A stretch of 64,000 bases of DNA from Sandaracinus amylolyticus (GTDB taxonomy: Bacteria > Myxococcota_A > Polyangia > Polyangiales > Sandaracinaceae). Positions within the stretch are counted from its first letter, which is position 1; the number at the start of each line of letters is the position of its first letter. The notes below the pieces were generated by a model, which worked only from the letters and a program-made list of their open reading frames with translations, did no database searches and was not told where the DNA came from. Positions 11,380 to 50,031 of the stretch are shown here, one piece after another. A program made the translations under genes and the position numbers. Where the stretch lies: NCBI RefSeq assembly GCF_021631985.1, contig NZ_CP070225.1:2852001-2916000 (forward strand). Direction: 5' to 3'.

Positions 11380-12480
11380 ATGTCCTCGACCGCGACGACC
11401 GAGAGCGCCTCGAGCGCGCCCACCCCCGTGACCGCTTCCGTGCCTCCTGCGCCCGAGCCCTCGTTCGCGCGTCGCGTGCTGCCGAAGCTCGGCATCTCGT
11501 TCGCGCTCGCGGGCCTCTTCGTGTGGCTGCTCGAGCGCGGCGGCATGCCGCTCATCCCGTCCGCCGACGCGTTCGCGCGCGTGCGCTGGTGGACGGTGCC
11601 CGCGTACATGGCGCTCCTGCTGGTCACGCACTTCTTCCGTGCGAGCCGCTGGCGCTTCCTGATCACCCCCGTGAAGAACGTGCCGTTCCGCGAGGTGATC
11701 GTCCTGAACTGGATCGGCTTCTTCGCGATCTTCGCGCTGCCGCTCCGGCTCGGCGAGATGGCGCGCCCCGCGCTCACGAAGATGCGACAGGGCGTGCCGA
11801 TCTCCGCGGGCTTCGGCACCGTCGCGGTAGAGCGCGTGATCGACGGGCTCGTGACGAGCCTCTGCGTCGTGTGGGCGCTCGTCGCGCTGCCGCACCGCGA
11901 CGTCGACGATCCGATCGCGCGCAGCCTGCCGTACTACGGCGGGCTCGCGGTGAGCGTGTTCGCGGCGGCGATGATCGGCCTCGTGCTCTTCCTGTGGCAG
12001 CGCGCGCTCGCGGTGCGGCTCGTCGACTGGACGTTCGGGCTCGTGAGCAAGCGCCTCGCATCGAAGGTCGCGGAGAAGGTCGCGAGCGTGGCCGACGGAG
12101 TCCGCTCGATCGCGGTGCCGAGCCTCGCGGCGGGCTTCGTGATCGAGACGCTCGTCTACTGGTTCGTGAACGCGCTCGGGATGTGGCTGCTCGGCTGGGG
12201 CTGCGGCCTCGACATGGGCTTCGGCCACGCGGTCGCGGTCATGGGCATCCTCGCGATCGGGATCCTGCTGCCCGCGGGCCCGGGGCTCTTCGGGAACTTC
12301 CAGCTCGCGATCTCGGTCGCGCTGAAGCTGTTCTTCGCGGAGTCGATCGTCGGCGCCGAGGGCGCGGTCTACGTGTTCCTGATGTACGTGACCCAGGCCG
12401 TGATGATGACGCTCACGGGCGTGCTCCCGCTCTACGCGCTCAAGCTGCGCTTCTCGGATCTGCTCACCGCGCGCGCCTGA
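11380..12480 (+). CDS. Flippase-like membrane protein (UPF0104 / lysylphosphatidylglycerol synthase TM region)
   Basis: An integral membrane protein of the AglD/MprF transmembrane-region family. The first about 30 residues are a Ser/Thr/Pro/Ala-rich leader; from residue 31 on there are about eight hydrophobic helices, starting with ISFALAGLFVWLLERGG. Family signatures are visible: HFFRASRWRFLI, LPLRLGEMARPAL and TVAVERVIDGL. LLPAGPGLFGNFQ near the C-terminus is also typical. The length of 366 is usual. Members are thought to move or modify lipid-linked molecules, but the substrate is not readable here. The 129-base gap upstream holds no clear promoter. Confidence 0.85.
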   Translation: MSSTATTESASSAPTPVTASVPPAPEPSFARRVLPKLGISFALAGLFVWLLERGGMPLIPSADAFARVRWWTVPAYMALLLVTHFFRASRWRFLITPVKNVPFREVIVLNWIGFFAIFALPLRLGEMARPALTKMRQGVPISAGFGTVAVERVIDGLVTSLCVVWALVALPHRDVDDPIARSLPYYGGLAVSVFAAAMIGLVLFLWQRALAVRLVDWTFGLVSKRLASKVAEKVASVADGVRSIAVPSLAAGFVIETLVYWFVNALGMWLLGWGCGLDMGFGHAVAVMGILAIGILLPAGPGLFGNFQLAISVALKLFFAESIVGAEGAVYVFLMYVTQAVMMTLTGVLPLYALKLRFSDLLTARA

Positions 12481-12486
12481 GCGCGG

Positions 12487-14316
12487 TCACTCGAAGAGGC
12501 GCGCGTGGACCGCGCGCGCCCACGCGACGATCGACGCGACGCTGGGCTCGTCGTCGCTCCGCACCACGAGCGTGAGCGCGCCGCCGGCGCGCGCGACCGT
12601 CGCAGCGCGCGCGATCCCAGAGGCCCACGCGTGATCCGCAGCGGCGATCGCGTCGACGTCCTCGGCGCGACCACCGAGCATCGAGCGGAAGAACCGCGCG
12701 AGCCGCACCGACACGCCATCGACCGGCGGCGCATCGTCGATCGCGCGCGCTGCCGTCAGCTCGACGACGAAGGTGTCGCCGTCGACCCGCACCTCGCAGC
12801 TCAGCTCGCCGGCGTCGACGTCGAGCGCGACGGTGCGCCCGTCGATCGCGAGGTCGCGATATCCGCCGCCGGTCCACGCGAGCGCGACCAGGCGCAGCAG
12901 CCGACGCGCCCCCTCGTCATCGCTCGGCTCGGGGACAGCCGGAGGCTCGGAGCGCGGCGGGGCAGGGCGGGGCGCATCGATCTCGGGGACCGGATGCACA
13001 CGCGCGAGATCGACCGTCGCGCGACCGTGACCTTCGAGCTCGACCCGCGCGACGCCTTCGTCGGCGCGGATCTTCAGGACACGCCCGCGCACGCGATCGC
13101 CGGGCAGCCGCTCCACGAGCACGCGCGTGCCGTGCTCGAGGCCGCTCGGCACCGCGCTCGCGATCGGCGCGCCACCACGCCTCCACGACGACGCCGCGTC
13201 GATCAGCGAGGTGCCCGCATCGGCGACCCGCACCTCGGCGCGGTTCGCGATCGCCCCGGTCACGCGTCCTGCCCGATACACCACGTGCGCACGCTTGCCG
13301 CGCCCCTCGCGCATCTCGACCACGACGTGCGGTCCGCGCGCCGGCAGCAGCGACGCGAGCGGCGCGGCCGCGAGGTGCTTCCCGCGTGCCCACGAGCGCA
13401 CGCGACCGTGCTCCACGCACACGTCGGCGCCACGCACCGCGACGACGCGCCCGCGCGTCCACTCGCCGCTCACCGCGAGCACCAGCACGTCCGCGCCCTC
13501 GGCGAACGTCGGAAGCTCGACGCTGCTCGCCTGCGGGATCGACGGCGGCGCGCTCTCGGTGACGACGACGCGCGCAGCGGGCACCCACTCCACCGATCCG
13601 TCGTCCCACGCGACCTCGACGCTCGATCCCTCGACCGCGCGCACCGCGCCCAGGTAGTGCACACGATCCACCCAACGCGCGATCACGCGCGCGCCCGGCT
13701 CGGCCACGAGCCCGCGCGACCTCGGCGGCTCGGGAGGACGCGCCGCGCCCCCGAGCGCGAGCTGATCCGGCGGGTGCCACACGCCGTGTGACGCGCGGGC
13801 GTATCGCACGAAGAGCGCGCGTGATCCCACCGCGGCGATCCACCCGTCGTGCCCGTCCGCGCGCACCGAGACGCCCTCGCGCCATCCCGCGGCGCGCAGG
13901 CGCTCCGCAGCCTCGACGTCGACGCGCCCGCGCGGCAGCACGTCGCTCGCGATCACCGCGTGTTCGTCGCCTTCGTCGTAGCGCACCACGCCGTCGCGAT
14001 CGCTCGCGCGACGCACCAACACACCCGGATGGAAGCGCTTGCGATCCCACAGCACGACCACCGGTGATCCCTCGACCGGCAGCACACCCGGCGCGACGTC
14101 GGGAAGCGACGCGACGCGCTCGGGCGTGATCGTCTCGAACGTGTCGCCGAACCCGACCAGCGTCGGCAACCACTCGGCGCCCTCGCTGATCCCGAAGCGC
14201 ACGCGCACCTCGTCGTCGTCGACCGAGAGCACACTCGCGCGCAGCCAGAACCCGCGCGACGTCTCCGCGAGCACCGTCGCGCCCTTGCGTACGCCCGCCG
14301 GCCATCGCTGCGGCAT
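12487..14316 (-). CDS. Large protein of repeated Tudor/agenet-like barrels
   Basis: No known family recognised. The ATG at 14316 (MPQRWPAGVRKG) is chosen because 60 bases separate it from the divergent ATG at 14377; longer starts run into that region. The 609-residue product is soluble with no signal. Residues about 1-470 are a chain of short beta-barrel modules of about 55-60 residues. Each has the pattern V-x-A-x-W-x(4)-Y-x-G-x-V-x(10-14)-V-x-Y/W-D-D-G-x(2)-E-x-V, for example VEVAWDDGSVEWVPAARVVV, GVVRYDEGDEHAV and REGVSVRADGHDGWIAAVGS. This is the Tudor/agenet/SH3-like signature. A Pro-rich linker leads to a C-terminal domain of about 130 residues. Ligand and role are unknown; methyl-ligand binding is a guess from the fold alone. 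Confidence 0.8.
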   Translation of the reverse strand: MPQRWPAGVRKGATVLAETSRGFWLRASVLSVDDDEVRVRFGISEGAEWLPTLVGFGDTFETITPERVASLPDVAPGVLPVEGSPVVVLWDRKRFHPGVLVRRASDRDGVVRYDEGDEHAVIASDVLPRGRVDVEAAERLRAAGWREGVSVRADGHDGWIAAVGSRALFVRYARASHGVWHPPDQLALGGAARPPEPPRSRGLVAEPGARVIARWVDRVHYLGAVRAVEGSSVEVAWDDGSVEWVPAARVVVTESAPPSIPQASSVELPTFAEGADVLVLAVSGEWTRGRVVAVRGADVCVEHGRVRSWARGKHLAAAPLASLLPARGPHVVVEMREGRGKRAHVVYRAGRVTGAIANRAEVRVADAGTSLIDAASSWRRGGAPIASAVPSGLEHGTRVLVERLPGDRVRGRVLKIRADEGVARVELEGHGRATVDLARVHPVPEIDAPRPAPPRSEPPAVPEPSDDEGARRLLRLVALAWTGGGYRDLAIDGRTVALDVDAGELSCEVRVDGDTFVVELTAARAIDDAPPVDGVSVRLARFFRSMLGGRAEDVDAIAAADHAWASGIARAATVARAGGALTLVVRSDDEPSVASIVAWARAVHARLFE

Positions 14317-14376
14317 CGCGCGAGTCTGCCGGAAACTTGCGGGCATCGCGCGCGCTCGCGTATCGGTCGAGACGTC

Positions 14377-14865
14377 ATGCGTCGTCGTTCCTTCCTCGCG
14401 GGCGTGCCCGCAGCGCTGGGTTGCCTCGGCGCTGCAGCGGTGATCGCAGCGCCGCGCGTCGCACGAGCGCGCGTGCAGACCGACTACGCGTACGCGTGGG
14501 CCCAGGTCTGGCAGGCATCGGTGCGGCTCGTGCGCGTCGATCTCGGCTGTCCGATCACCGATCGTGACGAGGACATCGGCTACGTGATGTTCGACTACGC
14601 CGACGCGGGTCGGACCCACGCGGGCAGCGTCGAGCTCGTGCGAACGACCGGCAGCGACGGCATCGAGCGGGTGAGGGCGGTCGTGCAGATTCCCTCGATG
14701 CCGTCGTGGGTCGAGCGCATGATCCTCGACCGCCTCACGCGGAAGCTCCGCGACGACTTCGGAGAGCCTCCGCGGCTCGCGCGCCCGGTGAGATCGGAGC
14801 GCGAGCGACCCGCCGATCCGCCCGCCGAACCCTCGGATCCGCCCGCTGACACCCCCGCGGAGTGA
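14377..14865 (+). CDS. Exported hypothetical protein with Tat-like signal
   Basis: Not recognised. The ATG at 14377 gives MRRRSFLAGVPAALG, a twin-arginine-type signal (RRRSFLAG) followed by a hydrophobic core and an Ala-rich cleavage region (about residue 31). The mature part has a compact domain of about 95 residues (YAWAQVWQASVRLVRVDLGC, DIGYVMFDYADAG, PSMPSWVERMILDRL). The tail is Pro/Glu-rich and may be a disordered linker. The alternation of strands and helices suggests a small alpha/beta fold. It is divergent from the barrel protein and upstream of the aspartate kinase, with no operon link. Confidence 0.75.
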   Translation: MRRRSFLAGVPAALGCLGAAAVIAAPRVARARVQTDYAYAWAQVWQASVRLVRVDLGCPITDRDEDIGYVMFDYADAGRTHAGSVELVRTTGSDGIERVRAVVQIPSMPSWVERMILDRLTRKLRDDFGEPPRLARPVRSERERPADPPAEPSDPPADTPAE

Positions 14866-38784: not shown

Positions 38785-41700
38785 TCAGGCCCTGAGCGAC
38801 GAGAGCAGCGCGCTCGCCTGGCGGTGCCCGTTCTCCTCCGCGAGGGCGCGCTCGAGCATCGAGATCGCCTTCTTGGGATCGCCCTGCTTGGCCGAGATGT
38901 CGCCCAGGTAGAAGTAGACGTCGCCCTTGGTGATGCCGGACTGGCCGTCGAGCTTCTGGAGCAGCAGCGCGCGGAACGTCTTCTGCGCGCGATCGTAGTC
39001 GCCCGTCGTGTAGCAGAGGCGGCCGAGGTCCCGGAGGATCTGCACGTTCGTGAGATCGACCTTGAACGCGGCGTCGTACGCGTTGAGCGCGCCCGTCGTG
39101 TTGCCCATGCCCTCGAGCGCCTGGCCGAGGCGGTGCTGGTAGAGCGCCACCTCCTTGCTGCGGCGCGTGCCGTACGACGCGATGATCTTCTCGAGCACCG
39201 GGATCGCGTCGCTTTGACGTCCCGCCGCGATGTAGAGGTCGCAGAGCGGGAGCAGCACCTCGCGGTTCTCGGGATCGAGCTGCACCGCGCGCTCGAGCCA
39301 GCTCGCCGCGCCGGCCGCGTCGCTCAGCTTGGCCGCGTGGAGATCGGCGATGCGCTTGAACAGCGCGATGCGATCGGCGGGCTTGCTGAACGACGCCTCG
39401 TCGAGCGCGAGCATGTGCGCGAGCTCGGCCCAGCGCTGCGTGCGCTCGTAGAGCGCCTTGAGGCGCGTGCGCACCTCGGCGTCGGCGGGATCGGTCTCGT
39501 GCAGGCCGCGCAGCGCGCGCTCGGCGCGTGCCTCGTCGTTCAGCTTCGTCGTCGCGAGCTCGACGAGGCGGAACGACTCCTCGCGGCGCTCGGCGTCGGC
39601 CAGCGTCGGCAGGAGGCGCTCGATGGCGTCGGCCGCGTCGGCGTGGCGGCCCGCGGCCGCGTGGAGGCGCGCGAGGGCGCGCAGCGAGGCCTGGCGCGAG
39701 GGATCGTGGTCGAGGATGCGCGCGTGCACCTCGGCCGCGGCGTCGGTCTCGCCGCCCTTCTCGCGCGCCTCGGCGAGCCGACCGAGCGCATCGAGCTGCG
39801 TCGTCACGTCGGTCGCGTCCGCGACGCGACGCTCGAGCAGCTCGACGAGATCGGCCTGGCGACCATCCGCCGCGTAGAGGCGCTCGAGCTCGTCGAGCGC
39901 GTCCGCGTTGTGCGGATCTTCGCCGAGGATCTCGTGCAGCTGATCGATCGCCTCGGCACGGCGGCCGAAGCGCGTCTCGGAGAGGCGCGCCAGGCGCACG
40001 CGCGCCGCGATGCGATCCGCGGGCGTCTCCGCGATGTCGAGGCGTCGCTGGATCAGCTCCTCGAGATCCGACCAGCGCTCCGCGCCCTCGTAGAGCGTCT
40101 CGAGCTCGCCGATCGCGTCGAGATCGGTCGCGACCTCGTCGATCACGGCGCGCCACGCTTCGATCGCGCGGTGGGGATCGCCGACCGGGCCCGCGAGCGC
40201 GTGCGCGAGCTGGCGGCGCAGCTCGACGCGGCGATCGGGATCCGACTCGACGTCGATGCGGCGCTCGAGCAGCTCGACCACCACCGGCCACGCGCCCGCG
40301 GCCATGCGGAGGCGGATGAGATCGTCGAGCGCGAGGGCATCGCTGCCGTCGGTCTCGAGGATCGCCTCGTGGAGGGTGATCGCCTGCGCGGTGTCGCCGA
40401 GCGCGCTCTCGGCGAGACGGGCGGCGTCGCGGAGGCGGTCCTTCTTCGCGACCTCGTCGTACTCGACCTCGGACCACGCGCGCAGCGCGCCGACGAGATC
40501 GGCCTCGCGACCCGGCGCGCGCAGCAGCTCGACGAGCTGCGCGTGTGCCTCCGCGGTCTCGCGATCCGCGATGATCGCGCGGCGCAGCGCGCCCTCTGCC
40601 GCGCCCGCATCGCCGAGGCGATCGCGGTACCAGCCCGCCGCGCGCAGCTCGAGATCGCGACGCGTGACCGCGTCGAGATCGTCGCTCCCGCTCGTGACGC
40701 GCTCGATCAGACCGCGCAGCGACTCCCAGCCGCTCACGATCGTCGCGAGGCGCTCGAGCTCGCCGAGCAGGCCCTCGTCGCGGCGATCGATCTCGAACGC
40801 GCGGATCGTCGTCGCGAGCGCCGCGCTCGGATCGCGCAGATCGTTCTCCTGCAGCTGCGCGAGCTCCTGGAGCAGCGCGACGCGCTCCCCGCCGTCGTCG
40901 GCGAGGCGCACGCGCACGTCGTAGAGCGCCGCCATCTTCTGGGTCGAGCTGGTGCGACGGTACGCCGCATCGAGCGCGTCGACGGCCTGCGCCGCGAGAT
41001 CCTCGTCGGCGAGCAGGCCCTCGACCGCGCCGATCGCGCGCGGCTCGTCGGGCTGCGCCTCGAGCACCTCCTGGAACGACGTGAACGCCGCGTGGCGATC
41101 GTTCTGGCGCTCCCAGCGCAGCGTGCCGAGGCGCACCAGGAGATCGATGCGCGCCGTGCCGTCGTTCGCGAGCTGCACTCGACGCTCGAGCACCTCCGCG
41201 AGGTCCGGCCACGACTGCGACTTGAGGTAGAGCCGATCGAGCGCGCCGAGCGCGTCCTCGTCGTCTCCGACCTGCTCGAGCGAGCGGCGGTACGCCTCGA
41301 TGGCGCGCGCGTCGTCGCCGAGCTTCTCCTCCGCGATGCGCGCGAGGCGCCCGTAGAGGTTCTTCGCGATCTCGGGATCCAGCGCCGACGAGCCGCGTGC
41401 CGCGAACACGTCCGCGACGCGATCCCACCCGCCGAGCGGCGCCGCGAGACGCTCGAGATCGTCCGCGGTGCGCAGGTCCGAGGGGTCCTCGGCGAGCGCG
41501 CGACGGTACGCCTCGAACGCGGCGTTCGCGTCGCGACGACCCTGCTCGTGCACCTCGGCGAGCGCGCGCAGACCGTCGCGCTTGTCGATCGGATCGCCGC
41601 TCGCTTCGGCGGTGAGCTCGAGCACTTGCGCGAGGTCGTCCCAGCGGCCCTGCTCGCGCAGCAGCGGCAGCAGGATCTCCGACGCGGCCTGGCGATGATC

Positions 41701-44700
41701 CTCGAGCCGCACGATGCGCAGCAGCGAGGCGAGCGTCGCCTCGTGCCGCGGATCGATCTCGAGCACCTGACGGTACGACTCGATCGCCTCGGGCGTGTCG
41801 TCGAGCTCGCGCTCGAGCACCTCGGCCGCGCGATGCAGCAGCGCGACGCGCGACGCGGCGTCGCCCGCCATGCCCGCCTGCAGGCGCAGGTTCTCGAGCA
41901 GCTCGGGCCACATCGCCTGGCGCTCGTAGAGGCGCGCCAGCGAGGTGACCGCGGTGGCCTCGCCCGGCTGATCCTCGAGCACGCGCACGAACGCTTCGAT
42001 CGCGGTCTCGGCGTCGCGCAGGAACTCCTCCGCGAGCTGACCGAGGCGGAGGCCCACTTCGGCGCGGAGCTCGGGCTCCTGCTCGAGCTCGACGCGGCGC
42101 TTGAGCACCTCGGCGAGCGAGGCGTGATCGCTCGCGTCGGAGAACAGGCGATCGAGCGACTCGAGCGCGACCGCGTCGTTCGGATCCTCGGCGACCGCCT
42201 GCTTGTAGATGACGATCGCGCCGCCGCGATCGCCGAGCAGGTCCTCCATCACCGAGCCCGCGCGGCGCAGCAGCTCGCCGCGCTCGATCGGGTCGTACGA
42301 GCGATCGACCTTGCGCTTGAGCACGTCGACCATGCCGCGCCAGTCGCCGACCATCGTGTGCAGCGCCTCGAGCGCGTCGAGCGGGCTCGCGTCCTCGGGG
42401 TCGTGCTCCGCGAGGCGCTCGTAGGTGACGATCGCCGCGCGCGGATCGCCGCGCTTCTCGTCGTGCAGGCGCGCGACGGTGCCGAGCAGCGAGCTCGTGG
42501 TCGCGGGATCGGTGCTCGCCGCGATCGCCTGCTCGTACGCGATGACGAGCTCGTTCCAGATCTCGAGCGTCGCGCCCAGCCGATCGACCTCGGCGCGCAC
42601 TTCCTCGTTGCCGGGATCGAGCCCCATCGCGCGCGCCATCGCGTGGAACGCGAGCGAACGATCGCGCCCGCGCTCCTCGTGCAGGCGCGCGATCTCCTGG
42701 AGCAGACGCACGCGATCGAGCGCGTCGTCGGAGAGCGCGACCTGCGCCTCGTGCACCGCGATGCGCTTCTTCCACTGATCCGTCGCCTGATAGATCGGCT
42801 CGAGGATCTGGATGATGCGGAGCTGGTGCTCGGGGTCGGTGACGAGCCGCTCGAGCTCGGTCACCGCGGGCAGGTGACGCGGATCGTCGCGCGTCACGTC
42901 CTCGAGGAGATCGATCGCGGCGGTCTTGTCGCCCAGCTTCTCCGCCGAGAGCACGGCGAGGCGGTGCTTGAGATCCGCGGCCTGCTTCGCGTCGGTCGTG
43001 AGATCGATGCGGTGCCGCAGGTGATCGGAGAGGTCCTGCCAGCGCTCGCGCGACGTGAGCAGCGCGTCGAGCGCGATGGTCGCGCCCGCGTGCGCCGGCT
43101 CGAGCGCGATCACCTCGCGGAACGCGTCGATCGCGCGATCGGCGTCGCCCTTCTGATCGCGCAGCACGAGCGCGGTCTTCTCGAGGAGCGACACACGATC
43201 GGCGTCGCTCGGCGCGACCTGCGCCTGCTCGTCGTAGAGCTCGAGCAGCGAGTCCCACTGCGACGTGCGGCGCAGCAGCGACTCGAGCGCGCGGAACGTG
43301 CCCTGGTCCTCCGGCGAGAAGCGCAGGGCCTTGCGATAGAGCTCGGCAGCCTTTGCCGCGTCGTTCGTGCGCTGGTCGTAGAGCTGCGCAGCCATCACCG
43401 CGAGGCGCTGCGTCGTCTCGTCCTCGACGCCGCCGTCCTCGATCGCCCCGCGGTACGTGTCGGCGAGGCGATCCCAGCGCTCGAGCACCTTGGCGAGGCG
43501 CGAGAGCGTCTCCCACGCGCCCTCGTCGCGCGGATCTTCGCGGAACAGACGCGCGTAGACCGTCATCGCGCCGTCGAGATCCTCGAGGTAGTCCTCGTGG
43601 ACCTGACCGAGGCGCTGCAGGAGCGCCTTGCGGCCCTCGAGCTCGGTCTCGCCGGAGAGGCGCGCTTCGAGCGCCTCGACCACGCGCGGCCACGCGAGGC
43701 GCGTGAGGTAGATGGGCTCGAGGATCGCCGCCGCCGCAGCGCGGTGCTCCTCGTTGGTGCGCATCAGGTCCTGGAGCTGCTCGACCGTCGGCTCGTGGGG
43801 CGCACCGAGCGAGAGCGCCTCGCGGAACTGCTCGATCGCGGTGGAGACGTCGTCGAGCTTCTCGCGGTGCAGGCGTCCGAGCTTGAAGCGCAGCTCGACC
43901 GCGAAGCCGACGCGCTGCTCGAGCATGCGCTCGTAGAGCGCGGCGAGATCGCTCCAGCGCTCCGCGCTGCCGCTCGAGGACGCAGTGTACAGCCGCTCGA
44001 GCGCGACGTACGCCGGCGCATGGCCAGGGTCCTCGCTGAGCACCTGCTCGAGCGCGTCGATCGCGGCCGGCAGCTCGCCGGTCTTCGTCTCGCAGAGCTC
44101 GGCCTGGCGCATCAGCAGCGTCACGCGATCGCGTCCGCTCGCGAGCTCCGACTTGCGACGGAGCACGTCGAGCAGCGCTGCGTGATCGCCCGCCTCCGCC
44201 GTCATCTGCTCGAGCGCGTCGAGCGCGCCCGCGTGATCCGGCTGGTGATCGAGGATCCGCTGGTAGTAGCCGCGCGCGAGCTCGGCGTCGTTCAGCCGCC
44301 GACGCGCGGTGTCCGCGATCTTGCGGTAGCTGTCGATCTGCAGATCGCCGTCGCCCACGTCGGGCGCGACGTCGCGCAGGAGCGCCACGTAGTCGGCCCA
44401 GCGATCGCTCGACGCCGCGAGGCGCTCGACGTCGCCGAGCAGCACGTTGACGTCGGGCTCGCCCAGGCCGGCACGCAGCGCGCGCGACGCGAGATCGAAC
44501 GCGCGTCCCGGCTCGCTGAGCCCGATGTCCGCGACCTCCGCCGCGCGACGCAGCGCACTGAGGCGCTCGCTCGGATCGTCGGACTCCGCGAGCACGTCGA
44601 GCGCGTCGAGCAGCGCGGGGTACGCGCCCTGGGCCTCGAAGCGCGGGCGCAGCACGCGCGCCGCGGCGAGCCGCGAGCTGCTCGCGGGATCGCTCATCAC

Positions 44701-47700
44701 CTCGCGCAGCGCGGTGACCGCGCCCTCGTGCGACGGCAGCGCGTCGAGCACCTCGGCGTAGGTCTCGATCGCGCGCTCGAGCTCGCCGGTGCGCTTGCGC
44801 ATCAGCTCGGCGCCGTGGAACCGCAGCTGCGCCTTCTCGGCCGCGCCGGGCACGAGGTCGTGCACCATCTGCACGACCTCGAGCAGATCGCTCCAGCGCT
44901 CCGCCTGCTCGTAGAGCCGGGTGAGCGCGGCGAGCGCCGCGTGATCGGGCCCGAAGCGCTCGATCACCTCGTTGTACGCGACGATCGCGTTGTCGCGATC
45001 AGTCAGCTTCTCGTCCCAGATCGCGCCGATGCGCAGCGCGATCTGCTTGCGCTCGCCGTCGCCCGACGCGAGCGCGTCGCGGCTCTGGAGCACGCCGATC
45101 AGCGGCTGCCAGCGACCGAGCTGCTCGTAGAGACGCTCGAGCGCGGCGAGCGCGCCGACGTCGTCGGGGTCGAGCTCGAGGCGCTCGTTGTGCACCGCGA
45201 TCGCGCCCTCGAGATCGTTCTGCTTGGTCTCGAGCAGCTCCGCGAGGCGCACCAGCAGCGAGCGGCGCGTGCCCGCCTCGTTCTCGAGCTTCGCCTGGCG
45301 GCGCAGATCCGCCGCGAGCTTCGCGTGATCGCCGCGCGAGCTGTGGATGCGCTCGAGCGAGCGCGACGCGCGCAGGACCATGTCGGGATCGTCCGACGCG
45401 ACCTCGACGAGGCGCTCGTACGCGCGCTCCGCGCGCCCCACGTCCGACAGCTTGTCGTCCCAGAGCGTCGCGACCTCGAGCAGCAGCTCGGACTGCAGCG
45501 AAGGCTGTCCCTCCACCGAGTCGATCGCGCGCTCGAGCACCGCCGCGCGGCGCGCGTCCGCGCCCTGCATCGTCGCCACGCGCGCGAGCTCGGCGCGCGC
45601 ACCGCCGTCCGCGGGATCGCACTCCACCGCGCGCGACCACGCGCCGAGCGCGGCCTCGTTGTTCGCGAGCCGGTTCTCGTGGATCTCCGCGATGCGCGTC
45701 AGCAGCGAGAGGCGCGTGCCGGGATCGTGGATCTGCTCGAGCTGCACCTCGAGCACGCGCGCGAGGTCCGCCCACGCGCGCCGCTGCTCGTGCACCGGCT
45801 CGAGGATCAGCGCGATGCGATGACGCTGCTGGCGATCGCTCAGCAGGCGCTCGAGCGCGTTGCGCGCGCCCTCGTGATCGCCGTCGAGACGGATCACCGC
45901 CTCGTAACGATCGACCGCCTGCGCGGGCTCGCCGAGCTTCGACTCGTGCAGCGCGCCGAGGCGGAACGTGAGCGACGTGACGTCGCCGGTGCCCTCGATG
46001 ATCTCCTGCTCGAGGAGCGCGGAGAGGTCGCGCCAGCGCTGCGTGCGCTCGTAGAGGCGCTCCAGGGCGCGACGGCTCGCGGCGTGACCGGGCTCGAGCT
46101 CGAGCACGTCGCGGTACGCGCGGATCGCGAGCTCGGCGTCGTCGATCAGCTCCTCGAACAGGAAGCAGACCTGCAGCAGCAGATCGAGCTTCGCGTCGGC
46201 GTCGACGGTCTGCGCGATGCGGTTGCGATAGAGGACCTGGAGGTCGTCCCAGCGCTCCGCGTTCGTGTAGAGCTCCTTCAGCGCGAGGAAGCTCGCCTCG
46301 CTCTGGGGATCGCCCGCGATCACGCGGCGATGGAAGGGCTCGGCGTCCGCCGGACGACCGAGCACGACGTCGTAGATCTGCGCGACCTTCTCGGCGAGGC
46401 GCGTGAGGTCCTCGGCGGGCATCTCGCCCGCTTCGATCGCGGTCGCGATCGCCTGCGCGAGGTGCTCGTGCTTGTGCGCGCGATCCGCCGCCGCGAAGAG
46501 GCGCTCCCAGATCGACTGGTCCGCGGGCGCGTCGAGGAACGCGCTCTCGAGCGCGGCGTACGCCGACTCGGGATCGTCGACGCGGCTCGAGCTGAGCTCC
46601 GCGAAGCGGAGCCGCAGCTGGCGCTTCTCTTCCGCGCTGGTCGCCGACGCGAGCCGGCGCTGGACGCTGGCGCGCAGCTTCGACCACTCCCCCGCAGCCT
46701 CGTACGCGCCTTCGAGCAGGCGCGCGATCGCGTCGCGCTGCTCCGCATCGAGCGCATCACCCGCGAGCAGCGTCTCGAGCGACGCGATCGCCCGGCGATC
46801 CGCCTTGCGCGACGCGAGCACCGTCGCGAGCTCGTCGATCGCCGCCGCCGCGTCGGGCGCGCGCTCCACGAGCAGCTCACCGATGCGCGTCGTGAGCTCG
46901 ATCTTCTCGTCGTCGCTCGGCGCGAGCTCGCGGCGCTTCTTCGCGATCTCGACGACCTCGCTCCACCGCCCCGCGCGCTCCGCGAGCCGATCGAGCGCGA
47001 GGAGCGCGTCGCGATCGGTGGGATCGATCGCGAGCGCGGCGCGCCAGTGCTCCGCGGCCGACGCCTCGTCGCCGAGCTCGCCCTGCTCGAGCTTCGCGAG
47101 CTCGTGCAGCAGCACCCAGCGATCGGTCTCGTCCTTCTCGTGCTCGATGCGCGAGAGGAGCAGCCCACGCAGCTCGCTCCAGCGCGCACCGGTGCGATAG
47201 ATGCGATCGAGCGACTTGATCGCCTCGGCGTCGCCCGGATCGTCGGCGACGATGTCGCGAAGCTGCGCGATCGCGCGCTCCACGTCACCGAGCCGCTCGC
47301 CCGCGACGCGCGCGATCGATCGACGCAGCCACAGGCGCTCGTCGCCCGGCGCCTTCTCGAGCCGGATCGCGAGCGCGTTCGCGAGGCGATCCCACGCGCC
47401 CGCCTTCTCGGTCGCGATCCACAGCGCGTCGCGAACCTCGCCGACCACTGCGGCGCCCTGGGAACCAGCCGCGAGCGTCCACGCCTCGAGCTGATGGCGG
47501 AACGCGGCCTGCGCGTCGTTGAGGTGATCGCCCGCGATCACCCGCAGGCGCGAGAGCAGCGCGACGCGCTCCTCGATCTCCTGGGGATCGATCGCCGCGA
47601 GCACGACCTCGTAGAGCGCGGGGAGCCGGCTCCACTTCTCGTCCTTCTCGTAGAGCGCGATCAGCTTGCGCGCCGCGCGCTCGTTCACCGGGTCCGCCGC

Positions 47701-50031
47701 GAGCACGCGCTCGTAGCTGCGGAACGCGCGGTGCGGCTCCTGGATACGCTCCTCGTAGACCGCGGCCGCGCGGAACGAGAGCGCGATCTTCTGCTCCGCC
47801 GAGTCGCTGCGATCGGCCGCGTTGCCGAGCACCTCGGCGAGACCGTCCCAGTCGTTCTGCTCGGCGTAGAGCGCCTCGAGACCCTCCCAGTCACCCGCCG
47901 CGACGAACGACTCGCGCAGCGTGCGCAGCGCGCGACCGTTCTTCGGATCCGCCGCGAGCACGCGCTTCCACGCGCTCGCCGCCTTCGTGGGATCCTTCGC
48001 CTGCTCGCCGTAGAGGATGCCGAGCTTCGTCAGGAGCTTGATGCGCTCCTTGTCGTCGGGCGCCGCGCCGTTGTTCTCCAGCGCGCTCACGCGTCGCTCG
48101 AGCACCTCACCGAGCGTCGACCAGTCCTTCTCGCGCTCCGCGAGCTTCTCGAGCGAGTCGAGCGCCTCGGCGTGCGAGGGCTCGTGGCCGAGCACTTCCT
48201 TCCACAGCGAGATCGCGTCCGCGTGGCGGTGCAGGCGCTCGCCCGCGACGCGCGCGAGCTCGATGCGCATCGCGTGGCGCTGATCGACGTCCGCCGCGAG
48301 CTCCGCCTCGGCGCGCTGCACGTCGAAGAGCTGCTTCCACGCGCGCTTCTTCGTGTAGATGTCCTTGAGCTGCGCGAGCGCCTCGCGATTGCCGGGATCG
48401 CGCTCGATCACCAGCTCGAGCGGGCGCGTCGCCTGGTTGTAGTTCGCGAAGCGCTCGATCCAGAGGCGCGCGACGCGCATGTAGAGCGCGACCTGCTCGC
48501 GCGGCTCCTTCGCCGCGTCGGCCTTGCGCGTGAGCACCTGGATGAGGTCGTTCCAGCGACCCATCTGCTCGTACGTCGCGGCCAGCGCCTCGAGCGCGTC
48601 GCCGTCGTCCGGCGCGAGCGCGAGGATCGCGTTCCAGCTGTTGATCACCATCACGTCGAGGCGGAGGTGATCGCGGTAGATCACCACCATCTCGCGCAGC
48701 AGCGCGACGCGCTCGCTCACCGAGTCCGCCGGGAGCGAGTCGACCTCGCCCTTCAGCACCTCGACCAGCGCGTTCCACTTCTCGGTCTGGCGATACAGCT
48801 CGCGCAGCGCCCGCAGCGCCTCGGGGTTGCGCGGGTCCTGGCGCTGCACCGTCTTCCACGCGTCGATCGCGCGATCGGCCGCGCCGCTCGCCTGCGCCGC
48901 GCGCGCGAGCTCGACCGAGAGCTCGACCTTGAGCCGCGTGTCGCTCGTCACGCGCTGCGCGTCGCCGAGGACGGTGAGCAGCTTCGAGTGATCGCCGGTC
49001 TGCGGGAGGTATTCGCGATAGAACGCGAGCATGCCGGGGTGCGCGGGCTCGACCTTGCGCAGGCGCGCGAAGTACGGCTCCGCCTCCGCGGCCGAGCCGC
49101 GGAAGCGCCAGTGCACCATGCCGATCTGCAGCAGGATGCCCTGCTCGCTCTCGAGCTTCTGACGGCCGCGCAGCGCGTCGTCGTAGAGCGCGACGAGGTG
49201 ATCCCACTGCTCGCGCTGCGTGAAGAACTCGACGAGGAAGCGCATCGCCTCGGGGTGCCCCGGGACGAAGTCGAGGATGCGCTCGTAACAAGCCGCCGCG
49301 CGCTCCGGGCTCTCGAGCCGGCGCCCGAGCACCCGCGCCGCGCGCAGGTAGAACCCGATGCGATCGTCGCGGCTGCGCGTCTTCTCGGCGGCGTCGAGCA
49401 GCACCTGCGCGAGCTCGGCCCACTTCTCGCGCTTGCGGAGGATCTGCTCGTAGAGCTTGTTCGCGCGGGGATCGCCGGCGTCCGACTCGAGCGCCTGCTG
49501 GAAGAGGCGATCGGTGTCCTTGTCGCGGCCGCGCTTCTTGTGCTTCCAGACCAGCGTGCCCGCGCTCGCGAGGAGCGAGGTGCGCAGGCTCGCGTCGCTC
49601 GACGTCTCCGCCTCGTCGACGAAGCGCTTCGCGATCTCCTTCCAGTTCTGCTCCGACGCGGCGAGCGCATCGATCGCCTCGGCGATCTCGTCGTCACCGG
49701 GGCGCAGCGCCTTCGCGCGCTCGTACGCGGCCATCGCGGCCTCGTCGTCGAGCAGCTCCTCGCGGTGGATCCGCGCGAGCTCCTTGCGCAGCTGGGCCTC
49801 GCGATCCGGATCGTGCCCGCTCAGCGTCGCCTCGAGGTCGAGCAGCTGTGCTGCGGTCCACGTCTCGGCGCGCTCCTGGTGACCGCGTCGTGCGGCGCCG
49901 ATCAAGCGCAGCGGGTCGGATCCCAGTCGAGCGGTGTCGCCGCTCTCGATCGCCTCGCGCAGCTCGCGGAGCGCGTCGGAGTGATCGGGGTCCTCCTGGA
50001 GGAGACCGAGCAGGTGGGAGACGTCGAGCAC
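38785..50031 (-). CDS. Giant TPR-like repeat protein (about 3,748 residues)
   Basis: One uninterrupted reading frame of 11.2 kb. GTG start at 50031; no signal, no membrane segment, so cytoplasmic. Nearly all of it is one module of about 72-75 residues repeated roughly fifty times. In each, D/E-P-x(4)-A-L-x-x-L-x-x-L-Y is followed by x(5)-W-x-x-L-x-x-L-L-x-x-R, then a helix pair R-x-x-L-x-x-R-x-A-x-L with D-x-x-x-A-I-x-A-Y/F-R/E. Examples are DPRNPEALRALRELYRQTEK, DPSDLRTADDLERLAAPLGG and ATALDELLTSRERWQDL-like units. Each module is two TPR-type hairpins, so the protein is one long superhelix. Length is far above usual TPR proteins; a scaffold or length-measuring role is speculation. The aminotransferase gene abuts its stop. 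Confidence 0.9.
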   Translation of the reverse strand: MLDVSHLLGLLQEDPDHSDALRELREAIESGDTARLGSDPLRLIGAARRGHQERAETWTAAQLLDLEATLSGHDPDREAQLRKELARIHREELLDDEAAMAAYERAKALRPGDDEIAEAIDALAASEQNWKEIAKRFVDEAETSSDASLRTSLLASAGTLVWKHKKRGRDKDTDRLFQQALESDAGDPRANKLYEQILRKREKWAELAQVLLDAAEKTRSRDDRIGFYLRAARVLGRRLESPERAAACYERILDFVPGHPEAMRFLVEFFTQREQWDHLVALYDDALRGRQKLESEQGILLQIGMVHWRFRGSAAEAEPYFARLRKVEPAHPGMLAFYREYLPQTGDHSKLLTVLGDAQRVTSDTRLKVELSVELARAAQASGAADRAIDAWKTVQRQDPRNPEALRALRELYRQTEKWNALVEVLKGEVDSLPADSVSERVALLREMVVIYRDHLRLDVMVINSWNAILALAPDDGDALEALAATYEQMGRWNDLIQVLTRKADAAKEPREQVALYMRVARLWIERFANYNQATRPLELVIERDPGNREALAQLKDIYTKKRAWKQLFDVQRAEAELAADVDQRHAMRIELARVAGERLHRHADAISLWKEVLGHEPSHAEALDSLEKLAEREKDWSTLGEVLERRVSALENNGAAPDDKERIKLLTKLGILYGEQAKDPTKAASAWKRVLAADPKNGRALRTLRESFVAAGDWEGLEALYAEQNDWDGLAEVLGNAADRSDSAEQKIALSFRAAAVYEERIQEPHRAFRSYERVLAADPVNERAARKLIALYEKDEKWSRLPALYEVVLAAIDPQEIEERVALLSRLRVIAGDHLNDAQAAFRHQLEAWTLAAGSQGAAVVGEVRDALWIATEKAGAWDRLANALAIRLEKAPGDERLWLRRSIARVAGERLGDVERAIAQLRDIVADDPGDAEAIKSLDRIYRTGARWSELRGLLLSRIEHEKDETDRWVLLHELAKLEQGELGDEASAAEHWRAALAIDPTDRDALLALDRLAERAGRWSEVVEIAKKRRELAPSDDEKIELTTRIGELLVERAPDAAAAIDELATVLASRKADRRAIASLETLLAGDALDAEQRDAIARLLEGAYEAAGEWSKLRASVQRRLASATSAEEKRQLRLRFAELSSSRVDDPESAYAALESAFLDAPADQSIWERLFAAADRAHKHEHLAQAIATAIEAGEMPAEDLTRLAEKVAQIYDVVLGRPADAEPFHRRVIAGDPQSEASFLALKELYTNAERWDDLQVLYRNRIAQTVDADAKLDLLLQVCFLFEELIDDAELAIRAYRDVLELEPGHAASRRALERLYERTQRWRDLSALLEQEIIEGTGDVTSLTFRLGALHESKLGEPAQAVDRYEAVIRLDGDHEGARNALERLLSDRQQRHRIALILEPVHEQRRAWADLARVLEVQLEQIHDPGTRLSLLTRIAEIHENRLANNEAALGAWSRAVECDPADGGARAELARVATMQGADARRAAVLERAIDSVEGQPSLQSELLLEVATLWDDKLSDVGRAERAYERLVEVASDDPDMVLRASRSLERIHSSRGDHAKLAADLRRQAKLENEAGTRRSLLVRLAELLETKQNDLEGAIAVHNERLELDPDDVGALAALERLYEQLGRWQPLIGVLQSRDALASGDGERKQIALRIGAIWDEKLTDRDNAIVAYNEVIERFGPDHAALAALTRLYEQAERWSDLLEVVQMVHDLVPGAAEKAQLRFHGAELMRKRTGELERAIETYAEVLDALPSHEGAVTALREVMSDPASSSRLAAARVLRPRFEAQGAYPALLDALDVLAESDDPSERLSALRRAAEVADIGLSEPGRAFDLASRALRAGLGEPDVNVLLGDVERLAASSDRWADYVALLRDVAPDVGDGDLQIDSYRKIADTARRRLNDAELARGYYQRILDHQPDHAGALDALEQMTAEAGDHAALLDVLRRKSELASGRDRVTLLMRQAELCETKTGELPAAIDALEQVLSEDPGHAPAYVALERLYTASSSGSAERWSDLAALYERMLEQRVGFAVELRFKLGRLHREKLDDVSTAIEQFREALSLGAPHEPTVEQLQDLMRTNEEHRAAAAAILEPIYLTRLAWPRVVEALEARLSGETELEGRKALLQRLGQVHEDYLEDLDGAMTVYARLFREDPRDEGAWETLSRLAKVLERWDRLADTYRGAIEDGGVEDETTQRLAVMAAQLYDQRTNDAAKAAELYRKALRFSPEDQGTFRALESLLRRTSQWDSLLELYDEQAQVAPSDADRVSLLEKTALVLRDQKGDADRAIDAFREVIALEPAHAGATIALDALLTSRERWQDLSDHLRHRIDLTTDAKQAADLKHRLAVLSAEKLGDKTAAIDLLEDVTRDDPRHLPAVTELERLVTDPEHQLRIIQILEPIYQATDQWKKRIAVHEAQVALSDDALDRVRLLQEIARLHEERGRDRSLAFHAMARAMGLDPGNEEVRAEVDRLGATLEIWNELVIAYEQAIAASTDPATTSSLLGTVARLHDEKRGDPRAAIVTYERLAEHDPEDASPLDALEALHTMVGDWRGMVDVLKRKVDRSYDPIERGELLRRAGSVMEDLLGDRGGAIVIYKQAVAEDPNDAVALESLDRLFSDASDHASLAEVLKRRVELEQEPELRAEVGLRLGQLAEEFLRDAETAIEAFVRVLEDQPGEATAVTSLARLYERQAMWPELLENLRLQAGMAGDAASRVALLHRAAEVLERELDDTPEAIESYRQVLEIDPRHEATLASLLRIVRLEDHRQAASEILLPLLREQGRWDDLAQVLELTAEASGDPIDKRDGLRALAEVHEQGRRDANAAFEAYRRALAEDPSDLRTADDLERLAAPLGGWDRVADVFAARGSSALDPEIAKNLYGRLARIAEEKLGDDARAIEAYRRSLEQVGDDEDALGALDRLYLKSQSWPDLAEVLERRVQLANDGTARIDLLVRLGTLRWERQNDRHAAFTSFQEVLEAQPDEPRAIGAVEGLLADEDLAAQAVDALDAAYRRTSSTQKMAALYDVRVRLADDGGERVALLQELAQLQENDLRDPSAALATTIRAFEIDRRDEGLLGELERLATIVSGWESLRGLIERVTSGSDDLDAVTRRDLELRAAGWYRDRLGDAGAAEGALRRAIIADRETAEAHAQLVELLRAPGREADLVGALRAWSEVEYDEVAKKDRLRDAARLAESALGDTAQAITLHEAILETDGSDALALDDLIRLRMAAGAWPVVVELLERRIDVESDPDRRVELRRQLAHALAGPVGDPHRAIEAWRAVIDEVATDLDAIGELETLYEGAERWSDLEELIQRRLDIAETPADRIAARVRLARLSETRFGRRAEAIDQLHEILGEDPHNADALDELERLYAADGRQADLVELLERRVADATDVTTQLDALGRLAEAREKGGETDAAAEVHARILDHDPSRQASLRALARLHAAAGRHADAADAIERLLPTLADAERREESFRLVELATTKLNDEARAERALRGLHETDPADAEVRTRLKALYERTQRWAELAHMLALDEASFSKPADRIALFKRIADLHAAKLSDAAGAASWLERAVQLDPENREVLLPLCDLYIAAGRQSDAIPVLEKIIASYGTRRSKEVALYQHRLGQALEGMGNTTGALNAYDAAFKVDLTNVQILRDLGRLCYTTGDYDRAQKTFRALLLQKLDGQSGITKGDVYFYLGDISAKQGDPKKAISMLERALAEENGHRQASALLSSLRA

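Follow-up and report, generated by a model that had tools for sequence, protein, structure and literature searches.

Chromo-like domains of bacteria were described in 2018 by Kaur, Iyer, Subramanian and Aravind as SH3-fold domains that lie closest to Tudor and keep the cage residues (PMC5906684, in part). In the main-text portions of that paper, they occur as tandems of 2–6 per protein, are consistently secreted, count the delta-proteobacteria among their lineages, are reported in fusions with WD40 propellers, and are proposed as ancestors of the eukaryotic readers. Other bacterial proteins with related barrels include ProQ, whose C-terminal Tudor-fold domain is implicated in RNA binding and does not conserve the cage residues (PMC5393179, in part), and PA2504 of Pseudomonas aeruginosa, a cytoplasmic protein with a modelled Tudor-like domain and a proposed tethering role (PMC8466066, in part). 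For the cage itself the reference is the PHF1 Tudor domain, where the trimethyl-ammonium group sits between W41, Y47, F65, and F71, with contributions from D67 and S69; binding is lost in the mutants W41A, Y47A, and F65A and reduced in F71A, and the fourth aromatic is missing from MTF2 (PMC7492083, in part). A search of the open-access literature for bacterial Tudor domains under other names returned only one on-subject paper (PMC5906684).

A minus-strand open reading frame at positions 12487–14316 encodes a 609-residue protein (P0001) built largely from Tudor-like barrels. It lies in a window of 64,000 nucleotides (~72% GC), the whole stretch of DNA analyzed here, from a soil bacterium with a 10.96-Mb genome in two contigs. 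The frame begins with an ATG at 14316, and a second in-frame ATG is found 30 bases upstream. GC content by codon position (0.805/0.557/0.889) follows a coding pattern, and overall GC content is in line with the surroundings. The gene is real, and the retention of its C-terminal domain in the same reading frame supports this. A sigma-70-type scan found no promoter- or terminator-like site at the gene. The protein is Arg-rich. Inspection by eye found no signal peptide at the ATG of residue 1, at the ATG 30 bases upstream, or farther upstream, and the N-termini given by all in-frame choices lack a hydrophobic signal. In this respect P0001 differs from the published secreted chromo-like proteins (PMC5906684, in part). 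It shares with ProQ a bacterial origin, a Tudor fold, and a non-exported sequence; unlike P0001, ProQ has a single Tudor-fold domain with no kept cage and binds RNA (PMC5393179, in part). PA2504 is likewise a bacterial protein with a Tudor-like domain, and the available portions of its description report no string of modules (PMC8466066).

A profile of 54 external modules recognized five Tudor-like barrels in P0001, or seven when those identified by eye are counted, compared with 2–6 in the chromo-like proteins (PMC5906684, in part). The best single score of this profile in 1000 shuffled sequences was just 7.9 bits, so barrels 1, 2, 4, and 7 exceed every shuffle. On the minus strand, barrel 1 (amino acids 12–51, positions 14164–14283) scored 17.9 bits, barrel 2 (amino acids 83–128, 13933–14070) 18.1 bits, barrel 4 (amino acids 207–251, 13564–13698) 39.3 bits, and barrel 7 (amino acids 396–441, 12994–13131) 10.1 bits. 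Barrel 5 was matched in part (amino acids 274–301, 13414–13497) at 7.2 bits, a score reached by 4 of the 1000 shuffles. Putative barrels 3 (amino acids ~145–190, 13747–13884) and 6 (strands at amino acids ~331–356, 13249–13326) were assigned by eye and from strands in a low-confidence model, without profile support. The barrel scores are not fully independent because the 54 modules were recruited with a profile that included six modules of P0001. At one step module rows were hand-picked, leaving aside L009's second module, module fragments, and a number of near-duplicates. With a smaller seed profile of 9 external modules, barrel 4 alone was clear (41.7 bits), and the region of barrel 7 (amino acids 396–442) scored 4.2 bits, matched by 8 of 1000 shuffles. 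The preliminary description had counted four to six barrels; this estimate holds to the extent of five by profile, four of them above all shuffles, but barrels 3 and 6 were seen by eye and the 9-module profile is clear for barrel 4 only.

P0001 alone fell under every Pfam Tudor cut-off (Tudor_3, 18.3 bits at amino acids 209–249; Tudor_2, 14.6 bits; Tudor_4 at barrel 1, E 1.8e-4 over amino acids 11–50, with 21.5 bits against a cut-off of 25.8). Agenet was absent from its Pfam matches, and the only SH3b/KOW match at E ≤ 1 was MSSS, the MutS2-associated SH3 domain (E 0.072). When 34 modules (33 external modules and barrel 4) were scanned at E ≤ 0.01, Tudor_2 matched 14, Tudor_3 12, and Agenet 2; two of six related proteins scanned passed the Tudor_3 cut-off. 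An NCBIfam search with P0001 gave no match. Matches to phage and defense families were weak (PHROG, E 0.0054 at barrel 4; PADLOC WYL, E 0.028), and membership in such a family was rejected on that basis. A single-sequence model of full-length P0001 had a mean pLDDT of 40.7, with barrel 7 the best-predicted barrel (pLDDT ~70). A fold search with this low-confidence model gave nothing at E ≤ 0.001, and the weaker matches, on which no weight is placed, were mostly Tudor and Spt5 barrels.

The fold of barrel 4 was predicted with AlphaFold2 from an alignment with 33 external modules. The resulting model is a five-stranded barrel (pLDDT 84.9, pTM 0.67), and a Foldseek search placed the PHF19 and PHF1 Tudor domains first, with a TM score of 0.86 and E of 4.5e-4 for PHF19. 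VIA-align superimposed the model on PHF1 with Z 10.4 and an rmsd of 1.5 over 54 residues; barrel 4 is 28% identical to the PHF1/PHF19/MTF2 Tudor. Spt5/DSIF KOW chains aligned at Z 8.2–8.4 and ranked below the Tudors at 10.4. In comparisons with the PDB, a profile of the 34 modules also matched the Tudor domains of PHF1 (E 5.4e-7), PHF20, SETDB1, and 53BP1, and its best match among solved structures was the tandem Tudor of KDM4A (E 2e-12). KDM4A is an animal histone demethylase, and none of its architecture is present in P0001. These predictions identify barrel 4 as a true Tudor barrel and favor the original assignment of a Tudor-like fold over plain SH3b or KOW.

The PHF19 alignment places W215, Y221, W237, D239, and S241 of barrel 4 at the positions of W41, Y47, F65, D67, and S69 in PHF1, residues of a Tudor that reads H3K36me3 in PHF1, PHF19, and MTF2. 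D238 also occupies a cage position. Unlike PHF1, barrel 4 has E243 where PHF1 has F71, an aromatic also missing from MTF2, and P0001 is bacterial, with no histones and no PHD fingers. Across the 33 external modules, each of the three cage columns holds an aromatic residue in 31; the column of D239 holds Asp or Asn in 31, and that of W244 an aromatic in 22. Aligned within P0001, the W/Y/W triad is confined to barrel 4. The cage is partial in barrels 1, 2, and 5 and absent from barrel 7, which has none of the aromatics; barrels 3 and 6 could not be aligned. Barrel 2 keeps W and Y, but F-H replaces the middle Y. Fewer are retained in barrels 1 and 5; barrel 1 has F and W, with T replacing the first W. 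By alignment, the methyl-lysine cage is thus essentially complete in barrel 4 alone. As in the published chromo-like proteins, tandem modules are present (PMC5906684, in part), with a full cage in one of them. The proposal that several modules carry cage aromatics was not upheld, as the triad was found only in the barrel that had served as its example. Nor was a methyltransferase found fused to P0001 or recognized among its immediate neighbors, the farther ones being named by eye.

Tudor-like modules are not rare among the relatives of this organism. The module profile found them in 22 of 38 genomes (its own and those of relatives), and tandem cage-bearing chromo-like domains have been published (PMC5906684, in part). 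The initial impression of an architecture rare in bacteria therefore does not stand for this group; the barrel type was already known from bacteria, as in that 2018 report. Among 34 distinct frames that bear such modules, 13 carry at least two scoring 15 bits or higher. Twelve of these 13 multi-module relatives, which include some orthologue pairs, have an N-terminus like that of exported lipoproteins (7 of lipobox type by pattern, 5 more by eye). The exception is an apparently non-exported Spo0M-family protein of the same genome, L062. Some relatives carry a single module at the C-terminus and lack an obvious signal. A search of the genome with family PF18115 returned no match there or in any control; this null is a false negative, since a lipoprotein of the same genome passes the PF18115 cut-off. 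Ten lipoprotein-like proteins from several genomes (L032, L033, L036, L038, L039, L044, L045, L047, L057, and L058) have two to about six Tudor-like modules, and several of them keep most cage positions. L062 (L062:496–1356; contig C1, ~10412795–10413655) has two Tudor-like modules above the Pfam cut-offs (Tudor_3, 27.7 bits; Tudor-knot, 26.0 bits) and no export signal by eye; alongside P0001 it is thus another apparently non-secreted protein of Tudor type from the same genome.

The C-terminal part of P0001 (amino acids 466–609; positions 12490–12921, minus strand) forms a separate domain, named GYRD here after a motif. It was recognized by a match to the C-terminus of L071, a WD40 protein of genome G058 (42% identity, E 2.1e-9), and by a profile. 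Built without P0001, the profile scored this region at 52.1 bits, where 1000 shuffles reached no more than 7.2; leaving out the G058 row as well gave 45.1 bits, compared with 6.1 for the best shuffle. GYRD was found in at least 14 of 183 genomes of the order and at least 16 of 377 of the phylum, two of the latter doubtful (G257 and G197, presumably formamidopyrimidine-glycosylase-like and helicase-like proteins). These surveys scored only 21 or 10 candidates per genome, so that absences carry little weight; the order survey missed a propeller-type GYRD gene in the organism's own genome, 83% identical to that of its sister, which the phylum survey and a separate search recovered. After merging one duplicate and dropping the two doubtful rows, the 20 rows represent 17 distinct GYRD proteins, and P0001 is the only one with Tudor modules. 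The N-termini of the others are beta-propeller-like by eye (WD40 by Pfam in L071), as in the propeller–GYRD proteins of the same order (L071/L104, L095–L101, and L105), which share this C-terminal domain with P0001 and have a propeller-like N-terminus in place of the Tudor string. L124 (G005:C376) differs, with GYRD behind a string of zinc ribbons, by eye a third type of N-terminal partner. Obvious export signals were not seen by eye in the GYRD relatives, and a rough gene call at six propeller–GYRD loci revealed no shared gene context. All occurrences of the domain come from this phylum, the sole phylum searched. Pfam gave nothing convincing and does not describe it, its best PDB match by profile was poor (E 0.03), and a single-sequence model of the region had pLDDT values of ~33–68 per ten residues. 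Its pairing with propeller, zinc-ribbon, and Tudor-barrel N-termini marks an undescribed modular family. The main-text portions of the report on chromo-like domains do not mention GYRD (PMC5906684). What looks new in P0001, as judged from sequence, is the combination of a non-secreted protein with this partner domain and, if those seen by eye count, more barrels.

The surroundings of the gene are conserved without it. A segment at 12480–14329 is missing from the same intergenic spot in a sister genome (G008). The left neighbor, an LPG_synthase_TM family membrane protein (11380–12480, plus strand), is conserved at 8 of 8 loci compared, and the right neighbor, a twin-arginine-like exported protein with no Pfam family (14377–14865, plus strand), is present in 10 of 10 genomes of the family, this one included. 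The right neighbor is short and adjoins an aspartate kinase, named by eye. At all 8 loci compared (from 8 of the 9 other family genomes, G004 being left out) the two neighbors are adjacent, with no space for the P0001 gene. The locus reads as a clean single-gene insertion, and acquisition in this lineage is likelier than loss from the others. Neither terminal repeats nor a target duplication was apparent around 12480–14329, and a mobile element was rejected as the carrier on those grounds; plasmid origin was rejected as well, with no match among 72,556 plasmid records. No close full-length relative was found in the genome contigs searched. At E ≤ 0.001, P0001 matched 9 of 144 genomes of the order, its own included, with the non-self matches reached through one or two modules, and a search of the phylum matched 4 of 235 genomes, again including its own. 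The gene is thus confined to its own genome, or one species, among the genomes searched, and its function may for that reason be marginal.

The reading that we tentatively favor, at somewhat less than an even chance, is that P0001 is a cytoplasmic interaction scaffold, with barrel 4 as its binding site for a side chain that is methylated or cationic. The string of five barrels (seven by eye) would form an extended arm, and the barrel 4 cage would bind a bacterial partner protein through a lysine or arginine in methylated form or through some other cationic side chain. The remaining barrels, with partial or no cages, would mainly provide spacing and support or make weak contacts, and GYRD, common to propeller and zinc-ribbon proteins, probably links to a common partner or an oligomer. 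The presence of GYRD on proteins with interaction-fold N-termini (WD40 by Pfam in L071, others by eye) favors a scaffold. Arguing against it are E243 in place of F71, the restriction of the triad to one barrel, and the chance that the conserved aromatics could serve packing; in addition, no methylated partner or linked methyltransferase is known, most multi-module relatives are exported lipoproteins, and the full-length fold was predicted at low confidence (mean pLDDT 40.7). The barrels might instead grip RNA or DNA as KOW or ProQ domains do, with the aromatics stacking or packing and forming no methyl cage. The alignment of KOW/Spt5 chains to barrel 4 at Z 8.2–8.4, the RNA binding implicated for the ProQ domain (PMC5393179, in part), and the Arg-rich composition are consistent with this, but the KOW chains rank under the PHF1/PHF19 Tudors and barrel 4 retains the acidic cage-rim residues D238 and D239, whereas the ProQ domain has no cage (PMC5393179, in part). 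We consider nucleic-acid binding unlikely.

A rather unlikely explanation is that P0001 comes from a lineage-specific gene that was acquired recently and is decaying or barely functional, with most barrels already eroded. Its restriction to one genome among those searched, the clean insertion missing from 8 of 8 family loci, the loss of some or all cage residues from every barrel except one, and the missing promoter- or terminator-like site all fit such a history. On the other hand, 609 codons remain open with a coding GC pattern, GYRD is well kept, barrel 4 is intact, and the promoter scan covered only the sigma-70 type. The lipoprotein-like N-termini of 12 of the 13 multi-module relatives (7 by pattern, 5 by eye), together with the consistent secretion of chromo-like domains in the published account (PMC5906684, in part), would suggest an exported binder of peptidoglycan or matrix. 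We regard this as doubtful, because P0001 has no signal peptide by eye at either ATG or farther upstream, its GYRD relatives have no obvious signals by eye, and the Spo0M-type L062 is an apparently non-exported precedent for Tudor modules. Capture of a eukaryotic chromatin reader by gene transfer might be suspected, given that animal Tudor domains are the closest solved structures. It was rejected as very improbable because the same bacterial order has many proteins related in sequence to the modules; moreover, the GYRD proteins found are all from this phylum, the sole one searched, and the GC content matches the surroundings.

A more novel and doubtful possibility is that P0001 is a cytoplasmic bacterial reader of methylated side chains, in which a Tudor string replaced the propeller on GYRD, so that a propeller-addressed complex would now be addressed through a methyl-lysine-type cage. 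If true, this would amount to an equivalent, inside the bacterial cell, of the reading of marks by eukaryotes, with modules supplied by the exported Tudor-string lipoproteins of the lineage. Bacterial Tudor-like domains are the proposed ancestors of chromatin readers, yet in the published view they are secreted (PMC5906684, in part). The P0001 string, with its near-complete cage, and the dozens of related modules offer a direct place to test intracellular methyl reading by bacteria, and the exported multi-module lipoproteins are candidates for binding methyl-lysine or quaternary ammonium groups. Elsewhere in the window, the minus strand at 38785–50031 contains a 3748-amino-acid open frame with a coding-type GC distribution by codon position, by eye a giant TPR-repeat protein; a 4083-amino-acid frame on the opposite strand is its shadow.
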